Shown here piece after piece: positions 21,743 to 33,691 of a stretch of DNA of 64,000 bases. The stretch spans positions 124,001-188,000 of the forward strand of contig NZ_SJER01000005.1 in assembly GCF_004785955.1 (NCBI RefSeq). Reading direction: 5' to 3'. Within the stretch, counting starts at the first letter, position 1, and each line of letters opens with the position of its first letter. The DNA comes from Halostella litorea. Lineage in GTDB: Archaea > Halobacteriota > Halobacteria > Halobacteriales > Natronoarchaeaceae. Below the pieces are notes generated by a model. That model had not been told where the DNA came from and searched no databases. It worked only from the letters and a program-made list of their open reading frames with translations. Position numbers and translations under genes: made by a program.

Positions 21743-21884
21743 ACCGTGGCCAAGCGACGCGGCCGCCATAGCCGTTGCCCCCGGCTCGGGCCCGCCGCGG
21801 CGGGGTCGACGTGGATGGGGACTCCCTACCACACGGTTTTGGCGAACCTAAAAACTCAAGTGGTCCCGACGGGAACGCCGGGTA

Positions 21885-22655
21885 ATGAGCGCGGACGCCA
21901 CCGACGACGCGGCGGACGGAGGGATCGAATCGCCCGGCGGAGGGGACGGGTCGACCGACGCGAGCGACGCCGACGGCGAGTACACGTTCGACGACGTGAG
22001 CGTCGTGATGGGGACGTACAACGAGGCCGAGGCGATCGGCACCGTGCTGTCGGACATCGACGACGTGACCGACGGCCGGGCGGAGGTCGTCTGCGTGGAC
22101 AGTTCCACCGACGAGACGCCCGAGATAGCCGAGGAGCACGGGGCACGGGTCGTCCGTCAGGCCCCGCAGGGGTACGGCGTCGCCGTGCGCGAGGCGATCC
22201 TGACGCCGGACCGCCCCGTGGTCGTGACGACGGACTGCGACGACACCTACCCGATGGAACAGCTTCCGGAGTTCTTGGAGCGGATCAACGAGGGGTACGA
22301 CGTGGTCAGCGGCGACCGGCTCTACCACGGGGCCGACGCGATGCCGGACCTCAACCGGCGGGGCAACCAGGCGTTCGCGCTGCTCGCCAGCCTCCTGATG
22401 GGCCGGCGCGTCCACGACACGACGACCGGGATGCGGGCGTACCGCCGCGAGGTGGTCGAGTCGATCGAGTGGACCGAGAACACCGGCCTCTCGGCCGAAC
22501 TGCTGATCCGGCCGCTGCTGCGGGGCTACGACGTGATCGAGGAGCCGATCGCCTACCGCGAGCGCAAAGGGCAGACGAAACTCGACCCGTTCTCCGGCGG
22601 CGCGGCCATCGCCAAGTCCATCGTCAAGGTCTGTCTGGAGGAGCGGTTCCGGTAG
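21885..22655 (+). CDS. GT2 family glycosyltransferase (dolichol-phosphate sugar synthase-like)
   Basis: This 256-residue GT-A fold enzyme has the N-terminal motif VVMGTYNEAEAIG, then VVCVDSSTDETPEIA and the metal-binding motif TTDCDDTYPMEQLPEF. The C-terminal TTTGMRAYRREV and EEPIAYRERKGQTKL are typical of DPM1-like enzymes. It probably transfers a hexose from a nucleotide sugar to dolichol phosphate. No membrane helix is seen. It is convergent with the membrane glycosyltransferase at 22688-24880, so a shared N-glycosylation or surface-glycan pathway is plausible. Confidence 0.85.
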   Translation: MSADATDDAADGGIESPGGGDGSTDASDADGEYTFDDVSVVMGTYNEAEAIGTVLSDIDDVTDGRAEVVCVDSSTDETPEIAEEHGARVVRQAPQGYGVAVREAILTPDRPVVVTTDCDDTYPMEQLPEFLERINEGYDVVSGDRLYHGADAMPDLNRRGNQAFALLASLLMGRRVHDTTTGMRAYRREVVESIEWTENTGLSAELLIRPLLRGYDVIEEPIAYRERKGQTKLDPFSGGAAIAKSIVKVCLEERFR

Positions 22656-22687: not shown

Positions 22688-24880
22688 TCACTCCCGCGCG
22701 GTCAGCGTACTGTTGATCCACGTCCCGGAGACCCTGGTTTCGGGGCGGTCCGGGAGGTACGTCCCCTCACGCGCGCAGTCGAGGACCAGGTTGCAGACCG
22801 AGCGCTCGGGTGGCCACACCACCGCGACGCGCCCCTCGCTCGTCCTGACGCTCGCGTCCTCGCGGTAGGTGACCGACGCGCCGCCGCGCTGGACCATCGT
22901 CACCGACACCGCCACGTCGGCGGTCCCGTTCACCGGCACGTACGCGCGGTCGCCGGACACCCGCGTCAGGTTCTCCCCGACGGCGCGGACGCCCCGCGGG
23001 GTCAGCTCCCACGAGACGGCGAGTTCGTCGCCCGGGTCGTCGCGCTCGACGGCGTACTCGATAGCTCGCTCCTCGGCGGCGACCCGCACCGTCGCCGACT
23101 CGGCGTTCCGGATGACGCCCACGCGCGTCTCGGCGTCGAAGGCGGCCGCCTCGCGGACGTCGAGGCGGACGAGCTTCGGCGCGACCCGCTCGGTCGGGTC
23201 CGCCGTCCACTCGCCCTGGTAGGTGTACCGGTACGGCGTGCGCTCGGGGTACGCGTCGAGGACGGCGAAGTCGCCGGCGGCGTCGCGGTCCAGCGCGTAC
23301 ACGGCCGGCCCGTCGAAGCCGGGGTCGTTCCGGAGCGGCTGGAACGGGTGGTTGAGCCAGTCGCCGTAGGGGTCGGGCACGAACACGACCGCGCGCTCGA
23401 ACTCGCGGTCCTCGAACGGAGCGTACGCCCGCTCGTACTTCTCGGTGTAGGCCGCGTTGCGCTCGACCGGCGGCTCGACGACGCTCCGCTCGGCGACGCC
23501 GACGACCGGAAGCGTGACGACCAGCGCGACCAGCAAGGCGACGCGAACACCGCGCGCCGAGAGGCGGTCGGACGCGATCGCGTGCAGCCGGTCGTACCCC
23601 GCCACGACGGCGCTCGCGGCGAACGCCGACAGCGGGAGCAGCAGGTCGAAGTGGTAGAACGGGCCGAACTGCGAGATCAGGCCGTCGGTCGGGTCGGCGA
23701 ACGTCGACAGGACGTTGTAGTTCCCCCAGAAGAACACGTTGCCGACGCAGACGGTGACGAACAGCCCCGCGAGGACGGCGCGGAGTTCGCGGTCGGGGAG
23801 CGGGCCGTCGTCGGTCGCCGGGCCAGCGCCGGCGCGGTCGCCCCGGTACAGCCCGACCAGCAGGCGGGCGACGCCGGCGGCCGCGAGCAGCGTCCCGACG
23901 GGGCCGGCGACGAACCAGCGCGTCGCGAAGTACCACAGCACCCAGGCGTTGGCGCGCAGTGCGACGGCGGGCGTGTACTGCAGGTCGTGAGTCAAGATTC
24001 GGCGATAGCCGAATCCGAGGCCGTCGCGGGGCGCGAACGCCTCGTAGGGGAAGGTGAGCGGCGACCCCGTCACGGCGGCGTTGTACGCGAGCGTCGCGGC
24101 GACGAACGCCAGCCCGCCGGCGCAGACGACGGCGTACAGCGCGGTCCACTCCCGGAAGGAGCGGTCGGTCCCCCCGACGCGCCGGCGTCGGTACGCCCGC
24201 GCCAGCGTCAGGAGCGAGTGGGCGATAAACGGCGAGGCGAACAGCACGGCGGTGTAGGGCCGCGAGAAGAACGCGAGGCCGACGGCGACGCCCGCGGCGG
24301 CCGCGTAGCGACGGCTGCCGCGGCGGACCGCCCGGACGTACGCCAGCGCGAACGCCCAGGTGAGCAGGGCCGTCGGGGCGTAGGAGAGAAACACCGACGA
24401 CGACAGCAGAAAGAGCGGCGCGCCGACGAGCGCGACGGCCGCGACGACGCCGGTCCGTCGGTCGAACGCCGCGGCGGTCACGGCGTAACAGAGCGCGGCG
24501 TTGCCCGCGGCCACGGCGGCCAGCGCGACGCGGAACTCGCCGGTGAGCGTCTTTGCGGCGGCGTAGATGGCCGCGGTCACCGGCGTGTACTTGGGGTAGA
24601 GGCTGCCGCCGTCGTCGACGAAGAACCACGGACGGACGGCGTCGGGCACCGCCGGGCGGAGGTGCAACTGCCCGGCGAGCAGCATCTCGGCCTGCTGGAG
24701 GTACACCGCCTCGTCGTGGTTGCTGGAGTGGTAGGGGAACAGGTCCGTCGCGAGGACGAAGACGACGACGCCCGCGGCGGCGGCCACGAGCGCGGCGGCG
24801 TGGGCTGGCCGCAGGCGCTCGCGGAGTTCCAGGTCGCGGACCCCGTCGAGGGCACCGCCGACGCGGGGACCGTCGGCCAT
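22688..24880 (-). CDS. membrane glycosyltransferase, GT39/ArnT-like
   Basis: This 730-residue protein has about ten membrane segments in its N-terminal two thirds and an extracellular beta-rich C-terminal domain. The first loop has SSNHDEAVYLQQAEMLLAGQL, whose acidic DE pair is the expected catalytic site of PMT/ArnT (GT-C) enzymes using polyprenyl-phosphate sugars. Its ATG overlaps the stop of the ABC ATPase (ATGA at 24878-24882), which indicates translational coupling to the iron transporter operon. Acceptor unknown. Confidence 0.82.
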   Translation of the reverse strand: MADGPRVGGALDGVRDLELRERLRPAHAAALVAAAAGVVVFVLATDLFPYHSSNHDEAVYLQQAEMLLAGQLHLRPAVPDAVRPWFFVDDGGSLYPKYTPVTAAIYAAAKTLTGEFRVALAAVAAGNAALCYAVTAAAFDRRTGVVAAVALVGAPLFLLSSSVFLSYAPTALLTWAFALAYVRAVRRGSRRYAAAAGVAVGLAFFSRPYTAVLFASPFIAHSLLTLARAYRRRRVGGTDRSFREWTALYAVVCAGGLAFVAATLAYNAAVTGSPLTFPYEAFAPRDGLGFGYRRILTHDLQYTPAVALRANAWVLWYFATRWFVAGPVGTLLAAAGVARLLVGLYRGDRAGAGPATDDGPLPDRELRAVLAGLFVTVCVGNVFFWGNYNVLSTFADPTDGLISQFGPFYHFDLLLPLSAFAASAVVAGYDRLHAIASDRLSARGVRVALLVALVVTLPVVGVAERSVVEPPVERNAAYTEKYERAYAPFEDREFERAVVFVPDPYGDWLNHPFQPLRNDPGFDGPAVYALDRDAAGDFAVLDAYPERTPYRYTYQGEWTADPTERVAPKLVRLDVREAAAFDAETRVGVIRNAESATVRVAAEERAIEYAVERDDPGDELAVSWELTPRGVRAVGENLTRVSGDRAYVPVNGTADVAVSVTMVQRGGASVTYREDASVRTSEGRVAVVWPPERSVCNLVLDCAREGTYLPDRPETRVSGTWINSTLTARE

Positions 24881-26010
24881 CAGCGCTGCGTGGCGGGGAA
24901 CCAGGCCAGGTCGTGGTCGGCGTCGAGCGACACCGACACGCGCGTCCCGTTTGTCACCTGGTCGGTGTGGTTGTGCATGCACTCCAGCACGTCGCCGTTG
25001 TCGAGTACGACGCGGTAGAGGACGGTCGGCCCGAGGTAGCGGCGGTGGACCACCTCGCCGTCGCCGCCCCCGTCGACGGGCGCCGCCGACAGGTCGTCGG
25101 GCCGGACCAGCACGTCCAGTTTCGTGCCGTCGTACTCGGCGGTCAGCCCGTGGATGCGGTCGCGGTCGAGCGGGCCTAGCCCCGTCTCGACAGTGTCGCC
25201 GGAGAGAAAGCCCGAGAGGAAGCTCGCGTGGCCGAGAAAGCCCGCGACGAACCGCGACTCGGGGTGCTGGAACACCTGCTCCGGGCGGTCGACCTGCTCG
25301 ATCCGGCCGTCGTTCATCACGGCCACGCGGTCGCTGATCGACAGCGCCTCCTCCTGGTCGTGGGTGACGGAGATGGCCGTGACGCCGGCCTCCTTCAGGA
25401 TCGACCGGACCTCCTCGCGCATCTCGACGCGCAGGTCCACGTCGAGGTTGGAGAAGGGCTCGTCGAGCAGCAGCATCTCCGGCTCAGGCGCGAGCGAGCG
25501 AGCGAGCGCGACCCGCTGTTGCTGGCCGCCCGACAGTTCGTCGGGGCGGCTCTCGCGGTGGGCGTCCAGCCCCACGAGGTCCAGCATTTCGTCGACGCGG
25601 GCCTCGCGCTCGGCCTCCGGGCGCTCCTTCAGGCCGAACGCGATGTTCTCCTCGGCGGTCATGTGGGGAAACAGCGCGAACTCCTGGAACACGACGCCGA
25701 CGCCGCGGCGCTCGGGCGCGACGAACTCGCCGTCGCCGGCGACGGGCGAGCCGTCCAGCGACACGACGCCGCCGTCCGGCCGCTCCAGCCCGGCGATGAG
25801 GCGGAGCGTCGTCGTCTTGCCACAGCCCGACGGGCCGAGCAGCGTCAGTATCTCCCCGTCCGCGACGGACAGCGAGAGGTCGTCGATCACGCGCTCGTTT
25901 CCGTACGTCTTGCTGACGCCGTCGAGTTCGAGCACCGTCTCGCCCGCCGGCGCGTCGTCGGCCGTCGGGTCCGTCTCCGTCGCCGCGTCGGTGAGCGTGC
26001 TATTTGACAT
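24880..26010 (-). CDS. iron(III)-type ABC transporter ATP-binding protein
   Basis: This 376-residue ATPase has Walker A GPSGCGKTTT, Q-loop FQEFALFPHM, signature LSGGQQQRVALARSLA and Walker B MLLLDEPFSNLD, with the switch His in SVTHDQEEALSISD. A C-terminal TOBE-like regulatory domain (LDVLVRPDDLSA) follows. It belongs to the FbpC/PotA group that pairs with two-module permeases. It overlaps the permease by 11 bp upstream and the glycosyltransferase by 3 bp downstream. Confidence 0.92.
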   Translation of the reverse strand: MSNSTLTDAATETDPTADDAPAGETVLELDGVSKTYGNERVIDDLSLSVADGEILTLLGPSGCGKTTTLRLIAGLERPDGGVVSLDGSPVAGDGEFVAPERRGVGVVFQEFALFPHMTAEENIAFGLKERPEAEREARVDEMLDLVGLDAHRESRPDELSGGQQQRVALARSLAPEPEMLLLDEPFSNLDVDLRVEMREEVRSILKEAGVTAISVTHDQEEALSISDRVAVMNDGRIEQVDRPEQVFQHPESRFVAGFLGHASFLSGFLSGDTVETGLGPLDRDRIHGLTAEYDGTKLDVLVRPDDLSAAPVDGGGDGEVVHRRYLGPTVLYRVVLDNGDVLECMHNHTDQVTNGTRVSVSLDADHDLAWFPATQR

Positions 26011-27613
26011 CGTACCCCTCCTGGGAGATGATGACGAGGATCGAAGCCGCCGAGATAGCGACGAGCACCAGCGCCGGCACGGCGGCGTCGCCGTAGTAGC
26101 CGTCCTCCTGCATCTGCCAGATGTAGGTGACCAGGGTTTTGTAACCTTGCGGTCGCAGCATCAGCGTCGCCGGCAGTTCCTTCATCGTCGTCAGGAACAC
26201 GAGCGCCGCGCCCCCGAGCAGGCCGGGCGCGGCAAGCGGCAGCGTCACCGCGCGGAACGCGCCGACGGAACTGCGGCCCAGCGTCCGGGCGGCCTCCGGA
26301 AGCGCCGGGTTGATCTGGAGGAAGGAGGCCCGCGTGGACCCGACGGACTGCGGGAGAAAGCGGACGACGTACGCGAAGATGAGCAGCGGGAGCGTCAGGT
26401 AGAGGTCGGGCACCACGTTGATCCCGACGAACACGAGTGCCAGCCCCATCACGACGCCGGGCACGGCGTAGCCGACGTACGTGACGCGCTCGAACAGGTC
26501 GCCGAGGCCCGTGTCGTGCCGGGCCGACAGGTACGCGACCGGCAGGCCGAGCACCGTCGCCACGAGCGCCGCCGCCAGCGACACGTCGACGGAGTGGGCC
26601 ACGTACTCCAGTTCGAACGGGACGCCGCTCCCGGTCGCGCCGCCCCGCACAAGCCAGAGACAGAGCGTACCGATCGGCACGACCAGCGCGAACCCGACGA
26701 CCAGCGCCGGCGCGAGGACGGCGGGCCAGCGCCAGCGGCCCAGGCGGACGCGGGTCGCCGTGTGGCCGCCGCCGCCCGAGCCGTGGAGCGTGTCGTCGCC
26801 CCGGAGCCGGGACTCGACGGCGAGGATGAGCACGGTGACCGCGAGCAACTGGAGCGACAGCGTCGCGGCGAACTCGGCGCTGTCGGCCCACCGCGTGTAG
26901 ATGATCCGGGTGAACACGGAGTAGCGCATGATCTGGGGCGTACCGAAGTCCGAGAGGGTGTACAGCGCGGTGAGCAGCGACCCGGCGGCGACGGCCGGCC
27001 GGATCTGCGGGACCACGACCCGCTTGAACGCCTCCCAGCGGGTGTGCCGAAGCGTCCGGGCGGCGTCGACGAGGCTCGTATCGAGCGTCTTCAGCGACGC
27101 CCGGGTCGTGATGTACACGTAGGGGTAGGTGTACAGCGTCAGCACCAGCACCGTCCCCCACAGCCCGTAGATGCCGGGCAGCGAGTCGACGCCCAGCGGC
27201 GCGAGCAGCGACTGCACCTCCCCCTGGGGGGAAAACACCGAGACGAACGCGAACGCGCCGATGTAGCTCGGGATGACGAGCGGCAGCATCACCGCGACGG
27301 TCCAGAACCGCCGCCCCGGCAGGTCCGTCCGGACGGTCAGGTACGCCAGCGGCACCGAGATGAGTATCGACGCGCCGGTGACGCAGGCGACGAGGATGAC
27401 GCTGTTGATCAGGATCTGTACGGAGGCTGGTTCGACGAGCAGCGCGAGCGGTTCGGCGACGCCGGAGCGAAACGCCGTCTCGACGAGCCAGTACAGCGGC
27501 AGCACCGACGCCGCGGCGACCGCGCCGCTGAGCAGGGTGAGCCCGACGGGGTAGGAACCGCCGTCCGCGTCGGTGGCGTCGTCGGTCGCGGTGGTCCCCT
27601 GGTCGACCGCCAT
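26000..27613 (-). CDS. iron(III)-type ABC transporter permease, fused two-module
   Basis: This 537-residue membrane protein has two homologous halves of about six helices each, as in FbpB/SfuB. Each half carries an EAA-type loop for the ATPase: VDAARTLRHTRWEAFKRVVVPQIRP and EAARTLGRSSVGAFRAVTLPLAAPG. It forms the whole pore and imports ferric iron, or possibly thiamine-like substrates, together with its neighbours. It lies 7 bp downstream of the binding-protein gene and overlaps the ATPase gene, so one transcript is likely. Confidence 0.92.
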   Translation of the reverse strand: MAVDQGTTATDDATDADGGSYPVGLTLLSGAVAAASVLPLYWLVETAFRSGVAEPLALLVEPASVQILINSVILVACVTGASILISVPLAYLTVRTDLPGRRFWTVAVMLPLVIPSYIGAFAFVSVFSPQGEVQSLLAPLGVDSLPGIYGLWGTVLVLTLYTYPYVYITTRASLKTLDTSLVDAARTLRHTRWEAFKRVVVPQIRPAVAAGSLLTALYTLSDFGTPQIMRYSVFTRIIYTRWADSAEFAATLSLQLLAVTVLILAVESRLRGDDTLHGSGGGGHTATRVRLGRWRWPAVLAPALVVGFALVVPIGTLCLWLVRGGATGSGVPFELEYVAHSVDVSLAAALVATVLGLPVAYLSARHDTGLGDLFERVTYVGYAVPGVVMGLALVFVGINVVPDLYLTLPLLIFAYVVRFLPQSVGSTRASFLQINPALPEAARTLGRSSVGAFRAVTLPLAAPGLLGGAALVFLTTMKELPATLMLRPQGYKTLVTYIWQMQEDGYYGDAAVPALVLVAISAASILVIISQEGYDVK

Positions 27614-27620
27614 GGCGGCG

Positions 27621-28769
27621 TTAGACGTCGATTCCGGCGTCTCGCATCAGTTCGAGCGTCGGGCCGATGTCGGAGAGCTTGGTCAGGTCCAGGTCCGGCG
27701 AGTCGAGTTCGTCGACCGTCGGGAGCTCCCCGACGGGTTCGACCTCCGGAATGAGCGGGTACTCGAAGGTCGTAGTCGCGAAGTACTCCTGGGCCTCGGC
27801 CGAGAGCAGGTGGCGCACGAAGTTGGCGGCCAGGTCCTGCTGGTCGCTCGCGCTCACGACCGCTGCTCCGGCGACGTTGAAGATCGCGCCGGCGTCGCCC
27901 TCGGTAAACGCCGTGGCGATCGGCGGGTCGTCGCGGTTGTCGACGACACGCTGGATGTAGTAGTGGTTCGTAAAGCCCGCGCCGAGTTCGCCGTCGGCGA
28001 TGCGGCGCGCGACCGTGAACTCGTCGGAGTACGGCTCGATCCCCTGGTCGAGCATCCCCTCCAGCCACGACTGCGTGGCGTCCTCGCCCTCGAGGATCCG
28101 CATCGCCGTGACGAACGCCTGGAACGAGCCGTACGAGGGGGCCCACCCCATCACGTCCTCGAACCGGTCGGCGTCGGGGAAGGCGCCGATGTCGCTTGGG
28201 ATGTCGTCCTCGGAGAACTGGTTCGTGTTGTACGGGATGGTCCGCGCGCGGCCGGAGGTGCCGACCCACTCGTTGTCGTCGTCGCGGTAGGCCGAGTCGA
28301 CCATCGTGGCCACCTCGTCGGGCAGCGTCGCCGCGAGCCCCTCGTCGGCGAGGACGCCGAGCGCCCCGGAGTTGACGGAGAAGAACACGTCGGCCGGGCT
28401 GGCCTCGCCCTCCTCGCTGAGCTGGTTGACCAGGTCCGTGGAGCTGTTGTACCGGGGCTCGATCTCGAAGTCGTCGTAGAGGTTCTCGATGTAGCTGACG
28501 AGTTCGCCGACGAGCGGTTCGCCGCGCCCGGAGTACAGCGAGAGGGTCCCGCTCAGGTCGGGCATCTCCGCCATGGGCGTGCCGCCGGGCGGGTCCCGCC
28601 CCTCCCGGCCGGAGCCGATCAGGCCCGGGCCGTCGCCGCCGCCGTCGTCCTCGTCGCCCGAGAACGCGTCCAGCACCGCGCTACAGCCGGCAGTAGAAGC
28701 GATGCCAGCGGCACCCGTCGCCGCGAGAAAGCGTCGCCGAGTCGAGGGGGATCCGTCGTCTTCGCTCAT
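27621..28769 (-). CDS. iron(III)-type ABC transporter substrate-binding lipoprotein
   Basis: This 382-residue protein has a Tat signal (TRRRFLAATGAAGIAS) with lipobox TAGC, so it is lipid-anchored outside the cell. The mature part matches ferric-binding proteins: LSGTLSLYSGRGEPLVGELVSYIE, ADVFFSVNSGALGVLADEGL, and conserved Tyr/Asn sites such as TIPYNTNQF. A palindromic operator lies 8-23 bp before its ATG, between it and a TATA-like GTATAAGTG. This suggests iron-repressed expression. Confidence 0.92.
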   Translation of the reverse strand: MSEDDGSPSTRRRFLAATGAAGIASTAGCSAVLDAFSGDEDDGGGDGPGLIGSGREGRDPPGGTPMAEMPDLSGTLSLYSGRGEPLVGELVSYIENLYDDFEIEPRYNSSTDLVNQLSEEGEASPADVFFSVNSGALGVLADEGLAATLPDEVATMVDSAYRDDDNEWVGTSGRARTIPYNTNQFSEDDIPSDIGAFPDADRFEDVMGWAPSYGSFQAFVTAMRILEGEDATQSWLEGMLDQGIEPYSDEFTVARRIADGELGAGFTNHYYIQRVVDNRDDPPIATAFTEGDAGAIFNVAGAAVVSASDQQDLAANFVRHLLSAEAQEYFATTTFEYPLIPEVEPVGELPTVDELDSPDLDLTKLSDIGPTLELMRDAGIDV

Positions 28770-28776
28770 ACCTTGA

Positions 28777-28792
28777 TTTAGGCCTGCCTAAA
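28777..28792. promoter_or_regulatory. DtxR/IdeR-like palindromic operator (site 1)
   Basis: The perfect 7-2-7 palindrome TTTAGGC-CT-GCCTAAA lies immediately upstream of the iron-binding-protein gene. Read on the minus strand, a TATA-like GTATAAGTG (about 28797-28805) precedes it, so the palindrome covers the likely transcription start. The sequence resembles DtxR/IdeR boxes. Haloarchaea have DtxR-family iron regulators, so iron-dependent repression is inferred. Confidence 0.75.
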
Positions 28793-28811
28793 ACACTTAT
28801 ACCTGCCGATA

Positions 28812-29981
28812 TCAGTCGTCCGCGGCGGCCACCTGTGGCCGGGTCGCGACGCCGTCGAGTTCGTCGAGACAGGCCAGCCAGTCGTGCATGTACTCCCCGA
28901 CGTGGGCGAAGAACTCGCCGTTCTCGTAGGCCGACCAGTCGCCCTCGGCGAGCGCGGTCGCCATCGCCTCGAAGACGCCGGCGTAGGAGTCCGCGTCGCC
29001 GCCAACCTCGTCGACGACGCGCCAGAGGTGCTCGTTCAGTTCGAGGCCGGGCACCTCGTTGTGCAGGTCGTCGAACGTCGAGCGCGGGGCCTTGTTGTGC
29101 TCGCACAGCGGCGCACCGTTGTAGATGCGCTTGCCGAGCACGTCGCAGGCGCGCTTGAGGAACACGCCGCTCCAGATGTCGTCGAACCGGCCGACGTCCC
29201 ACGGGTTCTCGTCCATCGGGCACTGGTAGAACGCGGGGATCACCTCGCGGCGGAACGCGAGGTTCATCGAGCAGACGGTGAGGTAGTTGCCCCGCTCGGC
29301 GACGAAGTCGCCGTCGTAGTCGTCGGCGCTCGTCCGCGTCTGGGCCTGCCCCTGCAGGTCGCCGTCCATCAGGATACGGACGGCGTCGAGGTCGGGCACG
29401 TTCGTCCAGAGCCCCTGCGAGGCGACGACGTCGCCGGCCGCCACCTCGGCGGTGTCGGTTTCGACCGTCTCGCCCATCGCGGAGTAGGGGTAGCCGCGCG
29501 GGTAGAGGCCGTGTTCCTCGGCGTTCTGGTAGAGGACGTTCACCCAGTTCTCGTCGGAGGCGACGGACTCCACCTCGCCCGCGAACGCCAGGTTCGCCAT
29601 GTGGCGGCCGAAGAAGTCGTACTCCTCGTGGGGGAGCGTGTCGTCGTCGATGAAGACGCCGTAGTCGAAGTCGCCGGCCCACATGTACAGCAGGCCGAAG
29701 CTCGTTTCGGCGTGGCTCGCGGCCGGCACGACGTGGGCGTACTCGCTCACGCCGCGGGCCTCGTACCACTCCTCGCGGCGGCTCCCGTCGAATACCTCGC
29801 CGGAGACGCCCTCCTCGTCGAGCATCGCGCGCATCTCGTCGGTGTCACAGAAGTCCTCGGTCACCAGCACGACGTGGAGCCGGTCCAGGTCGAAGCCGTG
29901 CTCGCGGGCGTTGTCGAAGTACGACCGCATACACCCGTACTCGCGGATGGTCGGAACGATAACGCAGATGTCGCCGCTCAT
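28812..29981 (-). CDS. reversibly glycosylated polypeptide / UDP-arabinopyranose mutase-like protein
   Basis: This 389-residue protein resembles the plant RGP/UAM family (GT75) throughout. Shared-type segments are IVPTIRE, the metal-binding FIDDDTLPHEEYD, GYPYSAMGE, QGLWTNVPDLDA, CSMNLAFRREVIPAF, GRFDDIWSGVFLKRACDVLG and the EHNKAP region. Known relatives interconvert UDP-arabinose forms or self-glycosylate; here the nucleotide sugar is unknown. It begins an iron-transporter gene run and has its own copy of the palindromic operator overlapping its promoter. It is soluble, with no signal peptide. Confidence 0.8.
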   Translation of the reverse strand: MSGDICVIVPTIREYGCMRSYFDNAREHGFDLDRLHVVLVTEDFCDTDEMRAMLDEEGVSGEVFDGSRREEWYEARGVSEYAHVVPAASHAETSFGLLYMWAGDFDYGVFIDDDTLPHEEYDFFGRHMANLAFAGEVESVASDENWVNVLYQNAEEHGLYPRGYPYSAMGETVETDTAEVAAGDVVASQGLWTNVPDLDAVRILMDGDLQGQAQTRTSADDYDGDFVAERGNYLTVCSMNLAFRREVIPAFYQCPMDENPWDVGRFDDIWSGVFLKRACDVLGKRIYNGAPLCEHNKAPRSTFDDLHNEVPGLELNEHLWRVVDEVGGDADSYAGVFEAMATALAEGDWSAYENGEFFAHVGEYMHDWLACLDELDGVATRPQVAAADD

Positions 29982-30000
29982 TGTTCGGTGCCCGGACCTA

Positions 30001-30016
30001 TTTAGGCGAGCCTAAA
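30001..30016. promoter_or_regulatory. DtxR/IdeR-like palindromic operator (site 2)
   Basis: TTTAGGC-GA-GCCTAAA has the same 7-bp arms and 2-bp spacer as site 1 and lies 19 bp ahead of the ATG at 29981. On the minus strand it overlaps the A/T-rich TTATTTTA that is the likely TATA box, so binding should block transcription of the RGP-like gene. Confidence 0.75.
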
Positions 30017-30085: not shown

Positions 30086-30733
30086 TCACTCGCCGGGCAG
30101 GTCGTCGATCAGCACCACCGCCTCGCCCTCGACGACGACGCGGTCGGCGTCCTCGTCCGTGACCTCCGTCGAGAGGCGGAACTGGTCGTCGCCCAGGTCC
30201 TCGGTGACCTCGACCGTCGCGGTGACGCGGTCGCCGACCGACACCGGCGCGGCGAACTCCAGGTCCTGGGACAGGTAGATCGTCAGCCCCGGGAGCCGCG
30301 CCAGCGCCGCGCTGATCAGCCCCGAGACGAGCGTCCCGTGGGCGATCCGGCCGCCGAAGCGCGTGGTCTCGGCGAACGCCTCGTCCAGGTGGAGGCGGTT
30401 GGTGTCGCCGCTGGCCCGCGCGAAGTCGCGGACGTCCCCGTCGTCGACCGTCTTCGAGAAGCGCACCGAGTCCCCGACCGCTATCTCCTCGGAGCGCTCG
30501 ACGGAGCGCTCGAAGGTCCAGTCGTCCTCCTCGTAGTCCAGCGAGGGGATCGACGGCTCGCGTCGGTTGACCTCCCCGTCGCCGGCGTCGGCCGACTCGA
30601 CCTCGCCGTCGAACGCCGACAGCGCCGCGCTGTTTGCCGCCGTCGCGCTCCTGATGAACGACCCCGTCATCCGCGCCCACGCGTTCGTCATTGCCGACAT
30701 CGGCGTCGCCGTCTCCCGCGAGTGCTCACTCAT
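30086..30733 (-). CDS. MaoC-like (R)-enoyl-CoA hydratase, PhaJ-type
   Basis: This 215-residue protein has a helical N-terminal extension of about 90 residues followed by a hot-dog fold hydratase domain. The catalytic motif FARASGDTNRLHLDEAFAETTRFGGRIAHG carries the Asp and His of R-specific enoyl-CoA hydratases. It is divergent from phaR and next to the PHA operon, so it likely supplies (R)-3-hydroxyacyl-CoA from beta-oxidation. ATG 30733 (MSEHSRE) is preferred over the GTG two codons earlier. Confidence 0.88.
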   Translation of the reverse strand: MSEHSRETATPMSAMTNAWARMTGSFIRSATAANSAALSAFDGEVESADAGDGEVNRREPSIPSLDYEEDDWTFERSVERSEEIAVGDSVRFSKTVDDGDVRDFARASGDTNRLHLDEAFAETTRFGGRIAHGTLVSGLISAALARLPGLTIYLSQDLEFAAPVSVGDRVTATVEVTEDLGDDQFRLSTEVTDEDADRVVVEGEAVVLIDDLPGE

Positions 30734-30910
30734 GAACACTCGGCTTTGGCGGTAGACCCCTATGACTTCTTTGGCTGTTCACCCCCGTAGCGGGTACTTG
30801 CCCGCCGGTCCGGCCCGGAACCGGCGGCCGCTCCGCGGTTCGACCGGGTCGCGTCCGGGCCTTCCGATCCTTCCTATGTCATTGAATGGTAGCAGATGGT
30901 ATTCAGCGGA

Positions 30911-30919
30911 ACACTTATC
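30911..30919 (+). promoter_or_regulatory. probable phaR-phaP promoter (TATA region)
   Basis: The A/T-rich ACACTTATC lies about 30 bases before the ATG of phaR at 30945, the usual TATA-to-start spacing for a leaderless transcript. No ribosome-binding site precedes the ATG. Confidence 0.5.
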
Positions 30920-30944
30920 CGTTCCGGGGTGGTATACTGTATCG

Positions 30945-31268
30945 ATGACGGAGGACGACGACCGCGGTGGGATGCCGTGGACGCCAGCGGATTTCGCACG
31001 CCAGCTTCAGGCGGCCAGCGAGGACGCCGTCGAGTCCCAGCAGGAACTGTTCGAGCAGTTCCTCTCGGCCAACGCCGGGGGGATGGACGAGCTGTCCAAG
31101 CTCGGTCCCATGAGCATGGGCACCGCGACGTTCAAGACCCGCGTGCAAAGCGGCGGCCGCATCAGCATCCCCGACGCGGAGCGCGAGGCCCTCGACATCC
31201 AGGAGGGCGACATCGTGCAGACCGTCGTCGTCCCCGTGAAACGCAACAGAAGTGATTCCGATGAGTGA
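30945..31268 (+). CDS. phaR: AbrB-type PHA regulator PhaR
   Basis: This 107-residue protein has an acidic helical N-terminus. Its C-terminal AbrB/SpoVT swapped-hairpin domain is FKTRVQSGGRISIPDAEREALDIQEGDIVQTVVVPV. Haloarchaeal PHA operons carry such a regulator ahead of phasin PhaP, and it is known there to control phaRP expression. Its stop overlaps the phaP start by 8 bp, so the two genes are translationally coupled. Confidence 0.85.
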   Translation: MTEDDDRGGMPWTPADFARQLQAASEDAVESQQELFEQFLSANAGGMDELSKLGPMSMGTATFKTRVQSGGRISIPDAEREALDIQEGDIVQTVVVPVKRNRSDSDE

Positions 31269-31734
31269 CACCACCAACCCCATCACGACCGCATTCGAGT
31301 TCCAGCGCACCGCCGTCGAACAGACCCAGAAGGCCACCCACGACGCCCTGTCGGCCCAGAAGGCCGCCGTCGAGACGCTCGCCGAGAGCGTCGAGACGGT
31401 CAAGACCATGCAGGCCCAGACCGCCGAGATGAGCCAGGAGGCCGCCCACGCCTACCTCGACGCCCTCGAGAGCACCCTGCCCGAGGACGCCGCGGACTTC
31501 TCGGAGCTCCGCGAGGCCGTCGACGACGGCTTCGAGAGCGCCGACGAGTTCCAGGCCGACGCCTGGGAGGCGCTCGACGAGGTCATCGACGAGAACGTCG
31601 CCGCCTTCGACGAGTACGCCGACAACTACGTCGACGCCGTCGACACCGCGTTCGACAGCTTCCTCGACGCCCACGAGCAGGTCGAGGGGACCGTCGAGAG
31701 CGCCGCCGACGAGTTCGACGCCGCGGCGAACTGA
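31261..31734 (+). CDS. phaP: PHA granule-associated phasin PhaP
   Basis: This 157-residue, almost entirely helical and Ala/Glu-rich protein contains FEFQRTAVEQTQKATHDALSAQKAAVETLAE heptad-like repeats. That is typical of phasins that coat polyhydroxyalkanoate granules. It has no signal or membrane segment. It lies inside the phaRPEC cluster and overlaps phaR by 8 bp. A short T-rich run (ctttttc, about 31741-31747) follows its stop and may end some transcripts or act as the phaE promoter. Confidence 0.88.
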   Translation: MSDTTNPITTAFEFQRTAVEQTQKATHDALSAQKAAVETLAESVETVKTMQAQTAEMSQEAAHAYLDALESTLPEDAADFSELREAVDDGFESADEFQADAWEALDEVIDENVAAFDEYADNYVDAVDTAFDSFLDAHEQVEGTVESAADEFDAAAN

Positions 31735-31772
31735 GGCTACCTTTTTCAGGTCACGAACCCATTCTTTCCACA

Positions 31773-32324
31773 ATGACGGATTCACACACACCGAGCGCGA
31801 CCGCCGAGGGCTGGAACCAGTTCGTCGAACAGATGAACCAGCAGTTCATGGACGCCTTCGAACAGAACGTCGAGGCCCAGGCCGAGTTCGTCGAGTCCTG
31901 GACCGAGACGATGGAGGCGAGCGTCGACGACGACGAGATGTCCGAGGGCGTCAAGGGCTACGCCCGCGCCTACGAGGCGTGGATGGACGCCGCCCAGCGG
32001 ATGGTCGACCGCGTCAACGACGCCGCGCAAGGCGAGGAAGTCGAGGTCGAGGAGTTCCGCGACATCTGGCTCAACACCGCCAACGAGGCGTTCAAGGAGG
32101 CGATGAGCACGACGGCCTTCGCCGCCGCCACCGGCGAGTCGGTGAGCGAGGCGCTCGACCTCCGCCAGCAGGCCGACGAGGTCGCCGAGTCGACGCTGCA
32201 CGACCTGGGCTTCGCCACCGAGGGTGACGTCGTCGAGATCGGCGAGCGGCTCGTCGAACTGGAGCGCCGCCAGCACGCCGTCGAGGGGAAGCTGGACCGG
32301 ATCATCGAGGAACTCGAAGAATGA
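31773..32324 (+). CDS. phaE: PHA synthase subunit PhaE (class III)
   Basis: This 183-residue helical protein begins with [26 protein letters not shown] and contains [26 protein letters not shown]. It ends with a coiled coil ([28 protein letters not shown]) that likely binds PhaC. Haloarchaeal PhaE is required with PhaC for polymerisation. The stop overlaps the phaC start by 4 bp (ATGA), giving tight 1:1 coupling. Confidence 0.88.
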
Positions 32325-33691
32325 ACCCCTTCGCCGACGCGATCGACCTCCAGCGTCGCACCTGGGAGAACGCGGCGGAGATAGTCGAGAAGGCCGGTGC
32401 CGCGCCCGACGCCGGCGAGACGATCGCCGACGTGGAGGTCGGCCAGACCCCGAAGGAGGTCGTCTACGAGGAGAACAAGCTCCAGCTCTACCACTACGAG
32501 TCCCGGACCGAGGAGCAACACGACGTGCCGATCCTCATCGTGTACGCGCTGATAAACCGGCCGTACATCCTCGACCTCCAGCCGGACCGCTCGGTCGTCC
32601 AGACGCTGCTGGACAACGGGTTCGACGTGTACCTCATCGACTGGGGCGAGCCCTCGAAGCTGGACGCCTCGCTCACGCTCGACGACTACGTCAACCGCTA
32701 CATCGACAACTGCGTCGACGTGGTGCGCGAACGTTCCGGGCTGGACAGCATCAACGTGCTCGGCTACTGCATGGGCGGCACGATGAGCGTCATGTACTCG
32801 GCGCTCCATCCCGAGAAGGTCCGGAACCTCGGGCTGATGGCGGCCGGGCTCTGCTTCACCGGGGGCGGCGGCGTCCTCGAACTGTGGGGCGACGAGGCGT
32901 ACTACGACCCCGAGAAGGTCACGGAGACGTTCGACAACGTCCCCGCGGAGTTCCTAGACGTCGGCTTCGCGCTGATGGACCCCGTCGCCAACGGCGTGAC
33001 GAAGTACGTCCGCTTCTACGAGAACATGGAGGACGAGGACTTCGTCGAGAACTTCGCCCGCATGGAGGAGTGGCTCGGCGACGGCATCGACGTGGCCGGC
33101 GAGACGTACGTCGAGTTCCTCCGGGACATCTACCAGAAGAATAAGCTGTACGAGAACGAACTCGAACTCGGCGGGAAGCACGTCGACATCGGGAACCTGG
33201 AGATGCCGATCCTCCAGATCGTCGCGGAGTACGACCACCTCATCCCGCCAGAGGCGTCCAAGCCGTTCAACGACGTCGTCCCGAGCGACGACGTGACGAC
33301 GATGGAGGCCTCGACGGGCCACATCGGGATGTCCGTCTCCTCCAGTTCCCACGCGGAGCTGTGGCCGGACGTCTGCGAGTGGTTCGAGGAGCGCTCCGAC
33401 GTCGACGATTCCGACGCCGAGGATTCTGATTCCGACGATGAGGCGGCCGCAAACGCCGACTCATCCGAGGACACGGAGCCGGACGACTCCGACGCGACCG
33501 CCGACCGCGACCTGGAGGACATCGACGGGGTCGGCCCGTCGTACGCAGACCGCCTCCGGAGCGCCGGCGTCGACAGCGTCGCCGACCTCGCGGCCGCGAC
33601 CGCCGAGGACCTCGCGGACGACGCCGACGTGCCCGTCAGCGCTCTGGAGGACTGGATCGCGCAGGCGCGGTCGATAGTCGACGACAGCTAG
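32321..33691 (+). CDS. phaC: PHA synthase catalytic subunit PhaC (class III) with HhH tail
   Basis: This 456-residue alpha/beta hydrolase-fold polymerase has the nucleophile in the lipase-like box GYCMGG (Cys150), the catalytic Asp in [13 protein letters not shown] and the His in STGHIGMS. It joins (R)-3-hydroxyacyl-CoA units into polyester. After about residue 355 comes an Asp/Ser/Glu-rich linker. The final 60 residues form a helix-hairpin-helix-like domain ([28 protein letters not shown]). Long C-terminal extensions are known for haloarchaeal PhaC; the HhH character is notable. Confidence 0.93.

Follow-up and report, generated by a model that had tools for sequence, protein, structure and literature searches.

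The window analyzed here, i.e., a stretch of 64,000 nucleotides from the Halostella litorea genome (positions 124001-188000 of contig 4), carries a predicted ferric-iron importer set among genes for candidate sugar enzymes, with three copies of an iron-type palindrome at their promoters. In order of position, the features are as follows:

21837..21852, unstranded: third palindrome, two mismatches, before the dolichyl-phosphate hexose transferase gene (window scan; conserved in orthologues)
21885..22655, plus strand: predicted dolichyl-phosphate hexose transferase of family GT2, 256 aa, convergent to the GT-C gene (NF041391 score)
22688..24880, minus strand: predicted GT-C membrane glycosyltransferase with a C-terminal DUF7846, 730 aa (Pfam DUF7846, motif, model)
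24880..26010, minus strand: predicted ABC ATPase with a TOBE domain, 376 aa (Pfam ABC_tran 1.3e-36, TOBE_2)
26000..27613, minus strand: predicted two-domain ABC permease, 537 aa (Pfam BPD_transp_1, two stretches)
27621..28769, minus strand: predicted FbpA-type ferric-binding protein, 382 aa, with a Tat-like signal and lipobox, the signal judged by eye (7w3w, NHYY)
28777..28792, unstranded: perfect iron-type palindrome before the ferric-binding lipoprotein gene (window and genome scans; conserved in orthologues)
28812..29981, minus strand: RGP-like protein, a predicted GT75-type NDP-pyranose mutase homologue, 389 aa (Pfam RGP, MtdL likeness, active-site residues)
30001..30016, unstranded: perfect iron-type palindrome before the RGP-like gene (window and genome scans; conserved in orthologues)

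An earlier note on this DNA had described the two perfect palindromes, and the window scan recovered both with exact arms and no mismatch: TTTAGGC-CT-GCCTAAA at 28777-28792, with 7 bases between its end and the binding-protein ATG (28769, minus strand), and TTTAGGC-GA-GCCTAAA at 30001-30016, with 19 bases between its end and the RGP-like ATG (29981, minus strand). That note had noticed no other copy in the window; a third, weaker box at 21837-21852, with two mismatches and conserved in orthologues, ends 32 bases before the start of the 21885-22655 gene on the plus strand. Overall, four window sites had ≤3 mismatches, compared to a mean of 0.42 and a maximum of 3 across 100 shuffles (0/100 reached 4). 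Genome-wide (3.75 Mb), 7 perfect sites were detected, along with 14 at ≤1 mismatch and 22 at ≤2, the last figure compared to only 2 for a reversed-palindrome control; TTAGGNNNNCCTAA occurred at 19 sites and its control at none. On the other side of the RGP-like gene, the genes at 30086-33691 include one for a MaoC-domain protein (Pfam) and others that look polyhydroxyalkanoate-synthesis-like by eye, and the window scan found no box with ≤3 mismatches among them.

Elsewhere in this genome, boxes adjoin a FeoA gene (with a FeoB-like gene, assigned by eye, behind it) and precede three FhuD-type binding-protein genes confirmed by Pfam and one more recognized by eye, while at several positions the flanking gene has no confident name. 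These neighbors support an iron-type regulon, as the likeness of the palindrome arms to DtxR/IdeR boxes had suggested: the set fits a DtxR-type iron-box regulon in being located at promoters, above chance, conserved, and common to known iron genes. Judged from sequence, the boxes belong to an iron-type regulon, with iron as the metal suggested by the regulon members; five DtxR-family proteins in this genome scored above the Pfam cut-off. Leyn and Rodionov reportedly described a haloarchaeal "ferR regulon" in 2015, as cited in PMC11349517.

Other boxed genes were observed along the way. Two boxes, at C3:69387 and C3:69423 with 0 and 2 mismatches, lie upstream of the gene for a large DUF5059 protein that ends in a cupredoxin domain (L053:2388-4909, own genome). 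Another box stands directly before a gluconate-2-dehydrogenase-subunit-3-like gene, behind which a GMC oxidoreductase is encoded (L060:2243-4412, own genome C1:21742); the same boxed order occurs in Haloferax profundi (L119:1500-3013), and the boxed pair adjoins glycosylation genes in several further loci. This pair may constitute an iron-controlled outer sugar oxidase.

We next consider the individual proteins. The RGP-like protein matched Pfam RGP at 1.3e-16 (61.2 bits, curated cut-off 23.8), and its AlphaFold model (pLDDT 83.1) aligned to the bacterial mutase MtdL by Foldseek with an E-value of 4e-20 and TM-scores of 0.76/0.79, at ~23% identity in the structural alignment. Both results agree with the RGP family assignment made initially. 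The accompanying name "UDP-arabinopyranose mutase" was too specific, as MtdL is nearer than rice UAM both by sequence (phmmer against solved enzymes: 5e-26 for MtdL, the closest, and 2e-4 for rice UAM) and by fold (E-value 1e-11 for rice UAM2). Excerpts of PMC9937993 list the metal and active-site residues of MtdL as D109-D111, R159, D195, S228, R257, D260, and H287, for which the phmmer alignment gives D112-114, R162, D197, S238, R265, D268, and H295 as equivalents here; all of these were invariant in 28/28 RGP-like orthologues, which thus keep the DDD + His metal site (D112-114, H295) and the catalytic, autoglycosylated Arg (R162). Two sugar-site residues differ, with D87 and Q229 of MtdL corresponding to H90 and M239; in the same excerpts, MtdL needs both, and active plant enzymes have Ser at the D87 position. 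The protein is best described as a predicted intact GT75 (RGP/MtdL-type) NDP-pyranose mutase homologue, with a furanose as the presumed product. GT75 includes archaeal entries, and its characterized members are given as all plant except MtdL and hyg20 (PMC9937993, excerpts). A second, true RGP/UAM-type protein was found in one haloarchaeon (L064:1492-2472, genome G010, minus strand; Pfam RGP 1e-135), encoded without a box and adjoined by other glycosyltransferase-like genes.

The binding protein, permease, and ATPase together form a predicted FbpA-type ferric ABC importer. The binding protein matched its solved relative 7w3w at 3e-64, and its NHYY motif was invariant (19/19); we take the Tyr pair in this motif to be the iron ligands. 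A conserved stretch near the N-terminus of the binding protein (GSG...R...LPDL) was considered as a glycosylation-only tag and rejected, since L094 and L095, loci from two RGP-lacking genomes, carry a form of it. The idea that RGP-lacking genomes would be without a boxed ferric importer proved wrong, with a box at 16 of 19 FbpA-type binding-protein loci from such genomes. As these boxed proteins are encoded in genomes that lack the module, ferric import does not need it. At L097, L100-L110, L112, and L113, RGP-lacking genomes encode a different FbpA-type binding protein, in many cases behind two or three boxes.

Downstream, the GT-C gene probably starts within the ATPase stop codon: its likely ATG at 24880 overlaps that stop by one base, in line with the coupled membrane glycosyltransferase suggested earlier. 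Its product matched Pfam DUF7846 (8e-51), with a PMT_2 match just below cut-off, and an Asp-Glu motif in the first outer loop was conserved in 25/25 sequences, which is presumably the catalytic motif. A sequence search against solved structures returned no match, and we therefore turned to a structural model and a fold search. The model (pLDDT 87.3) matched AglB/OST, ArnT, ALG9/12, Emb, and Pmt4 by Foldseek, with low to moderate TM-scores; its multi-helix fold, together with the acidic motif, identifies the product as a predicted GT-C glycosyltransferase. In two genomes, the GT-C match contains one stop codon (G002:C1:302211-304292 and G273:C1:1763977-1766070), reflecting either decay or sequencing error. 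The GT2 protein scored 404.7 bits against NF041391, above the cut-off of 375; we take this to be the family of HVO_1613.

To evaluate conservation, we scanned with the RGP-like protein and obtained 38 haloarchaeal loci, i.e., 39 with the window, a set that favors close relatives. A gene was counted as boxed when a site with ≤2 mismatches lay between 160 bases before and 120 bases after its first possible start, and genes with too-short flanks were left out (reducing GT2 from 29 to 28, GMC oxidoreductase from 15 to 14, and epimerase from 8 to 7). Boxes were found for 36/39 RGP genes, 32/35 binding-protein genes, and 26/28 GT2 genes. Inside the same loci, they were found for 0/37 GT-C, 0/22 ATPase, and 5/32 permease genes and, among accessory genes, for 6/10 UPF0104, 5/11 gluconate-dehydrogenase subunit 3, 0/14 GMC oxidoreductase, and 0/7 epimerase genes. 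By comparison, 200 permuted palindromes averaged 0.005-0.04 matches per gene set; with the shuffles, the reversed control, and the TTAGGNNNNCCTAA control, this rules out a chance origin of the palindromes. Among 30 further loci selected by Pfam score, the RGP-like start could be placed in 24, 20 of which had a box with ≤2 mismatches; the remainder comprised five with unplaceable starts and the unboxed UAM-type enzyme of L064. RGP genes without such a box thus numbered 3/39 in the main set and 4/24 in the further set.

Gene order was likewise conserved as RGP, binding protein, (permease, ATPase), GT-C across haloarchaeal loci, and even in the 13/39 loci with no permease or ATPase between binding protein and GT-C, the other three remained together. 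The conservation of boxes and gene order in relatives, which had been put forward as a check on the original proposal, was supported in these loci. A flippase-like UPF0104 gene was present in 10/39 loci, and a recurrent variant box, TTTAGGTGGGCTTAAA, lies before or over the UPF0104 start, upstream of RGP, in L009, L010, L013, L018, L019, and L026, in each case near 7.7-7.8 kb.

In nine genomes, the GT2 gene and the RGP locus are separated by ≥33 kb or sit on different contigs. All nine GT2 genes have a box 47-51 bases upstream of a possible start, with ≤2 mismatches in 8/9 and 3 mismatches in the remaining one. These distant boxed genes rule out linkage alone as the cause of the GT2 box.

Across the class, RGP (PF03214) was detected in 305/391 genomes (296/377 good genomes, 66/86 genera), and the figures for GT-C were the same, the two genome lists being identical. 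In a 130-genome sample of the phylum, the RGP alignment gave 18 matches at 1e-20, all within the class and none outside it. For comparison, we used 20 of the 86/391 RGP-lacking genomes (those listed), spread over 15 genera (5 of which also have positive genomes), and 20 hand-picked RGP-positive genomes. GT-C was found in 20/20 positive and 0/20 sampled lacking genomes, as was the GT2 orthologue (≥417 bits), while no other GT2 protein in these 40 genomes exceeded 143 bits, or 131 bits in the RGP-lacking ones. The binding protein scored ≥532 bits in 20/20 positive genomes; among the 20 lacking, 2 reached 500 bits, 15 fell at 268-455, and 3 had no real match. The co-inheritance of RGP, binding protein, and GT-C is partly linkage, since these are neighbors, and because neighboring genes can be lost together it says less for RGP and GT-C than for GT2.

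Given that the putative mutase and charging enzyme share their box type with the ferric-binding protein, and that the transferase lies in the same cluster, we propose that this module is a glycosylation pathway active under iron starvation and coupled to the import of ferric iron, a reading we consider somewhat probable. What had looked like two co-regulated genes becomes a likely pathway once the third box and the dolichyl-phosphate hexose transferase behind it are added. Boxes, families, catalytic residues, gene order, and the co-inheritance of RGP, GT-C, and GT2 are supported by the sequences themselves; iron repression, the furanose product, the identity of the sugar, its acceptor, and the benefit to iron uptake are what we infer from them. 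Specifically, a DtxR-family repressor bound to the TTTAGGCNNGCCTAAA boxes would block all three promoters when iron is sufficient and free them as iron falls. The RGP-like enzyme would then convert an NDP-pyranose to an NDP-furanose, and the GT2 enzyme would transfer hexose to dolichyl phosphate. The lipid-linked sugar would reach the outer face, perhaps moved in some species by the co-localized UPF0104 protein, a family with predicted flippase activity (PMC5898192, in part). GT-C would pass it to an outside acceptor, most likely the ferric-binding lipoprotein or a nearby surface glycan, and the glycosylated lipoprotein or glycan would help supply Fe(III) to the ABC importer. The acceptor is the weakest step. 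More tentatively, we suggest glycan-assisted ferric uptake, i.e., that under iron shortage a dolichol-borne, possibly furanose, sugar is placed on the ferric-binding lipoprotein or adjoining glycan, where it could help to capture or retain Fe(III) in high salt. Several observations count against the pathway: boxed FbpA-type binding proteins are found in genomes without the module, 86/391 genomes lack it, the co-inheritance is partly linkage, and some RGP genes have no box with ≤2 mismatches. In addition, no RGP, DolP transferase, GT-C, or FbpA-type protein is named among the 19 proteins changed ≥10-fold in the Haloferax volcanii iron-starvation table (PMC11349517, section 3.3). The table does report the UPF0104 protein HVO_1859 as up 11.6-fold and the GalE-like HVO_0655 as up 12.7-fold; their resemblance to this module is at the family level only.

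The same boxes and enzymes would be predicted if the product of these enzymes were instead a polysaccharide or glycolipid of the cell surface that has a separate role when iron is low (in adhesion, biofilms, or protection), with only the regulator and the neighborhood in common with iron uptake. A DolP-sugar transferase, AepG, serves exopolysaccharide synthesis in Haloarcula hispanica (PMC9943897, in part), and boxed ferric-binding proteins do exist without the module. However, such a product would leave the constant FbpA-type neighbor unaccounted for, as this gene stays in place even where permease and ATPase have moved (13/39 loci) and its type (≥532 bits in 20/20 RGP-positive genomes) reached 500 bits in only 2/20 lacking ones; we regard this explanation as rather unlikely. 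It seems very improbable that the RGP-like gene has a housekeeping role unrelated to the iron operon next to it, with its box serving the operon behind. In most of the 39 loci, the genes for RGP, binding protein, and GT-C lie next to one another, and order alone could be inherited, but the binding-protein gene has its own box in 32/35 loci besides the RGP box, and the GT2 box is kept when GT2 is distant. Moreover, because RGP, GT-C, and GT2 are absent together, RGP does not appear to be a general housekeeping gene.

An importer and iron-type control within one cluster would also suit a secreted, glycosylated iron chelator made by the module and taken up by the ABC importer, and the boxed GMC oxidoreductase/gluconate-dehydrogenase-type pair near some loci might make sugar acids. 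Yet a GT-C enzyme using lipid-linked sugar acts at the membrane (general knowledge of the fold), the conserved gene set includes no chelator-synthesis gene, and the binding protein, which has the Tyr pair, belongs to the FbpA rather than the FhuD type, all of which makes a chelator improbable.

Taken individually, haloarchaeal DtxR-type iron regulation, FbpA importers, GT75 mutases, DolP transferases, and GT-C enzymes are each of a kind already known. Our literature search for iron-controlled glycosylation in haloarchaea found none among the titles and abstract openings listed; an earlier mention of these genes under iron control, for instance in the 2015 regulon paper, is possible. If the proposed pathway is correct, one environmental signal and one transporter are now tied to the haloarchaeal sugar-mutase branch, a dolichyl-phosphate hexose transferase, and an uncharacterized GT-C, in a module spanning, by RGP and GT-C, 305 of the 391 sampled haloarchaeal genomes. 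If the ferric-binding lipoprotein proved to be the acceptor, metal uptake in archaea would come to include glycosylation, and glycan-assisted uptake, if true, would provide a function for the haloarchaeal GT75 branch and a use for DolP-hexose outside N-glycosylation. The enzyme roles are directly testable in the genetically tractable Haloferax volcanii, which has a PF03214 match and an NF041391 match above cut-off.

Several known systems come closest to the parts of the module. The importer resembles FbpA/SfuA ferric ABC importers in its binding protein with a Tyr pair, two-domain permease, and ATPase, but its binding protein carries an additional conserved N-terminal stretch ahead of the FbpA domain, and its genes are clustered with glycosylation genes. 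The RGP-like protein shares with the GT75 mutases, Marinactinospora MtdL and plant RGP/UAM, the fold, the metal-binding DDD + His, the Arg autoglycosylated in plants, and the equivalents of D195/S228/R257/D260, whereas its gene differs from both in its iron-type box and glycosylation neighbors. GT-C has the fold and Asp-Glu motif of AglB, ArnT, Pmt, and Emb, although it carries a DUF7846 outer domain and its TM-score to each solved enzyme is low. The GT2 protein scores above the NCBIfam cut-off for NF041391, but has an iron-type box upstream. Finally, the boxes resemble those of the haloarchaeal DtxR-type iron regulon (Idr/SirR/TroR), with a TTAGG-CCTAA-type palindrome before FeoA and FhuD-type genes, whereas here they also cover a putative sugar mutase and dolichyl-phosphate hexose transferase.
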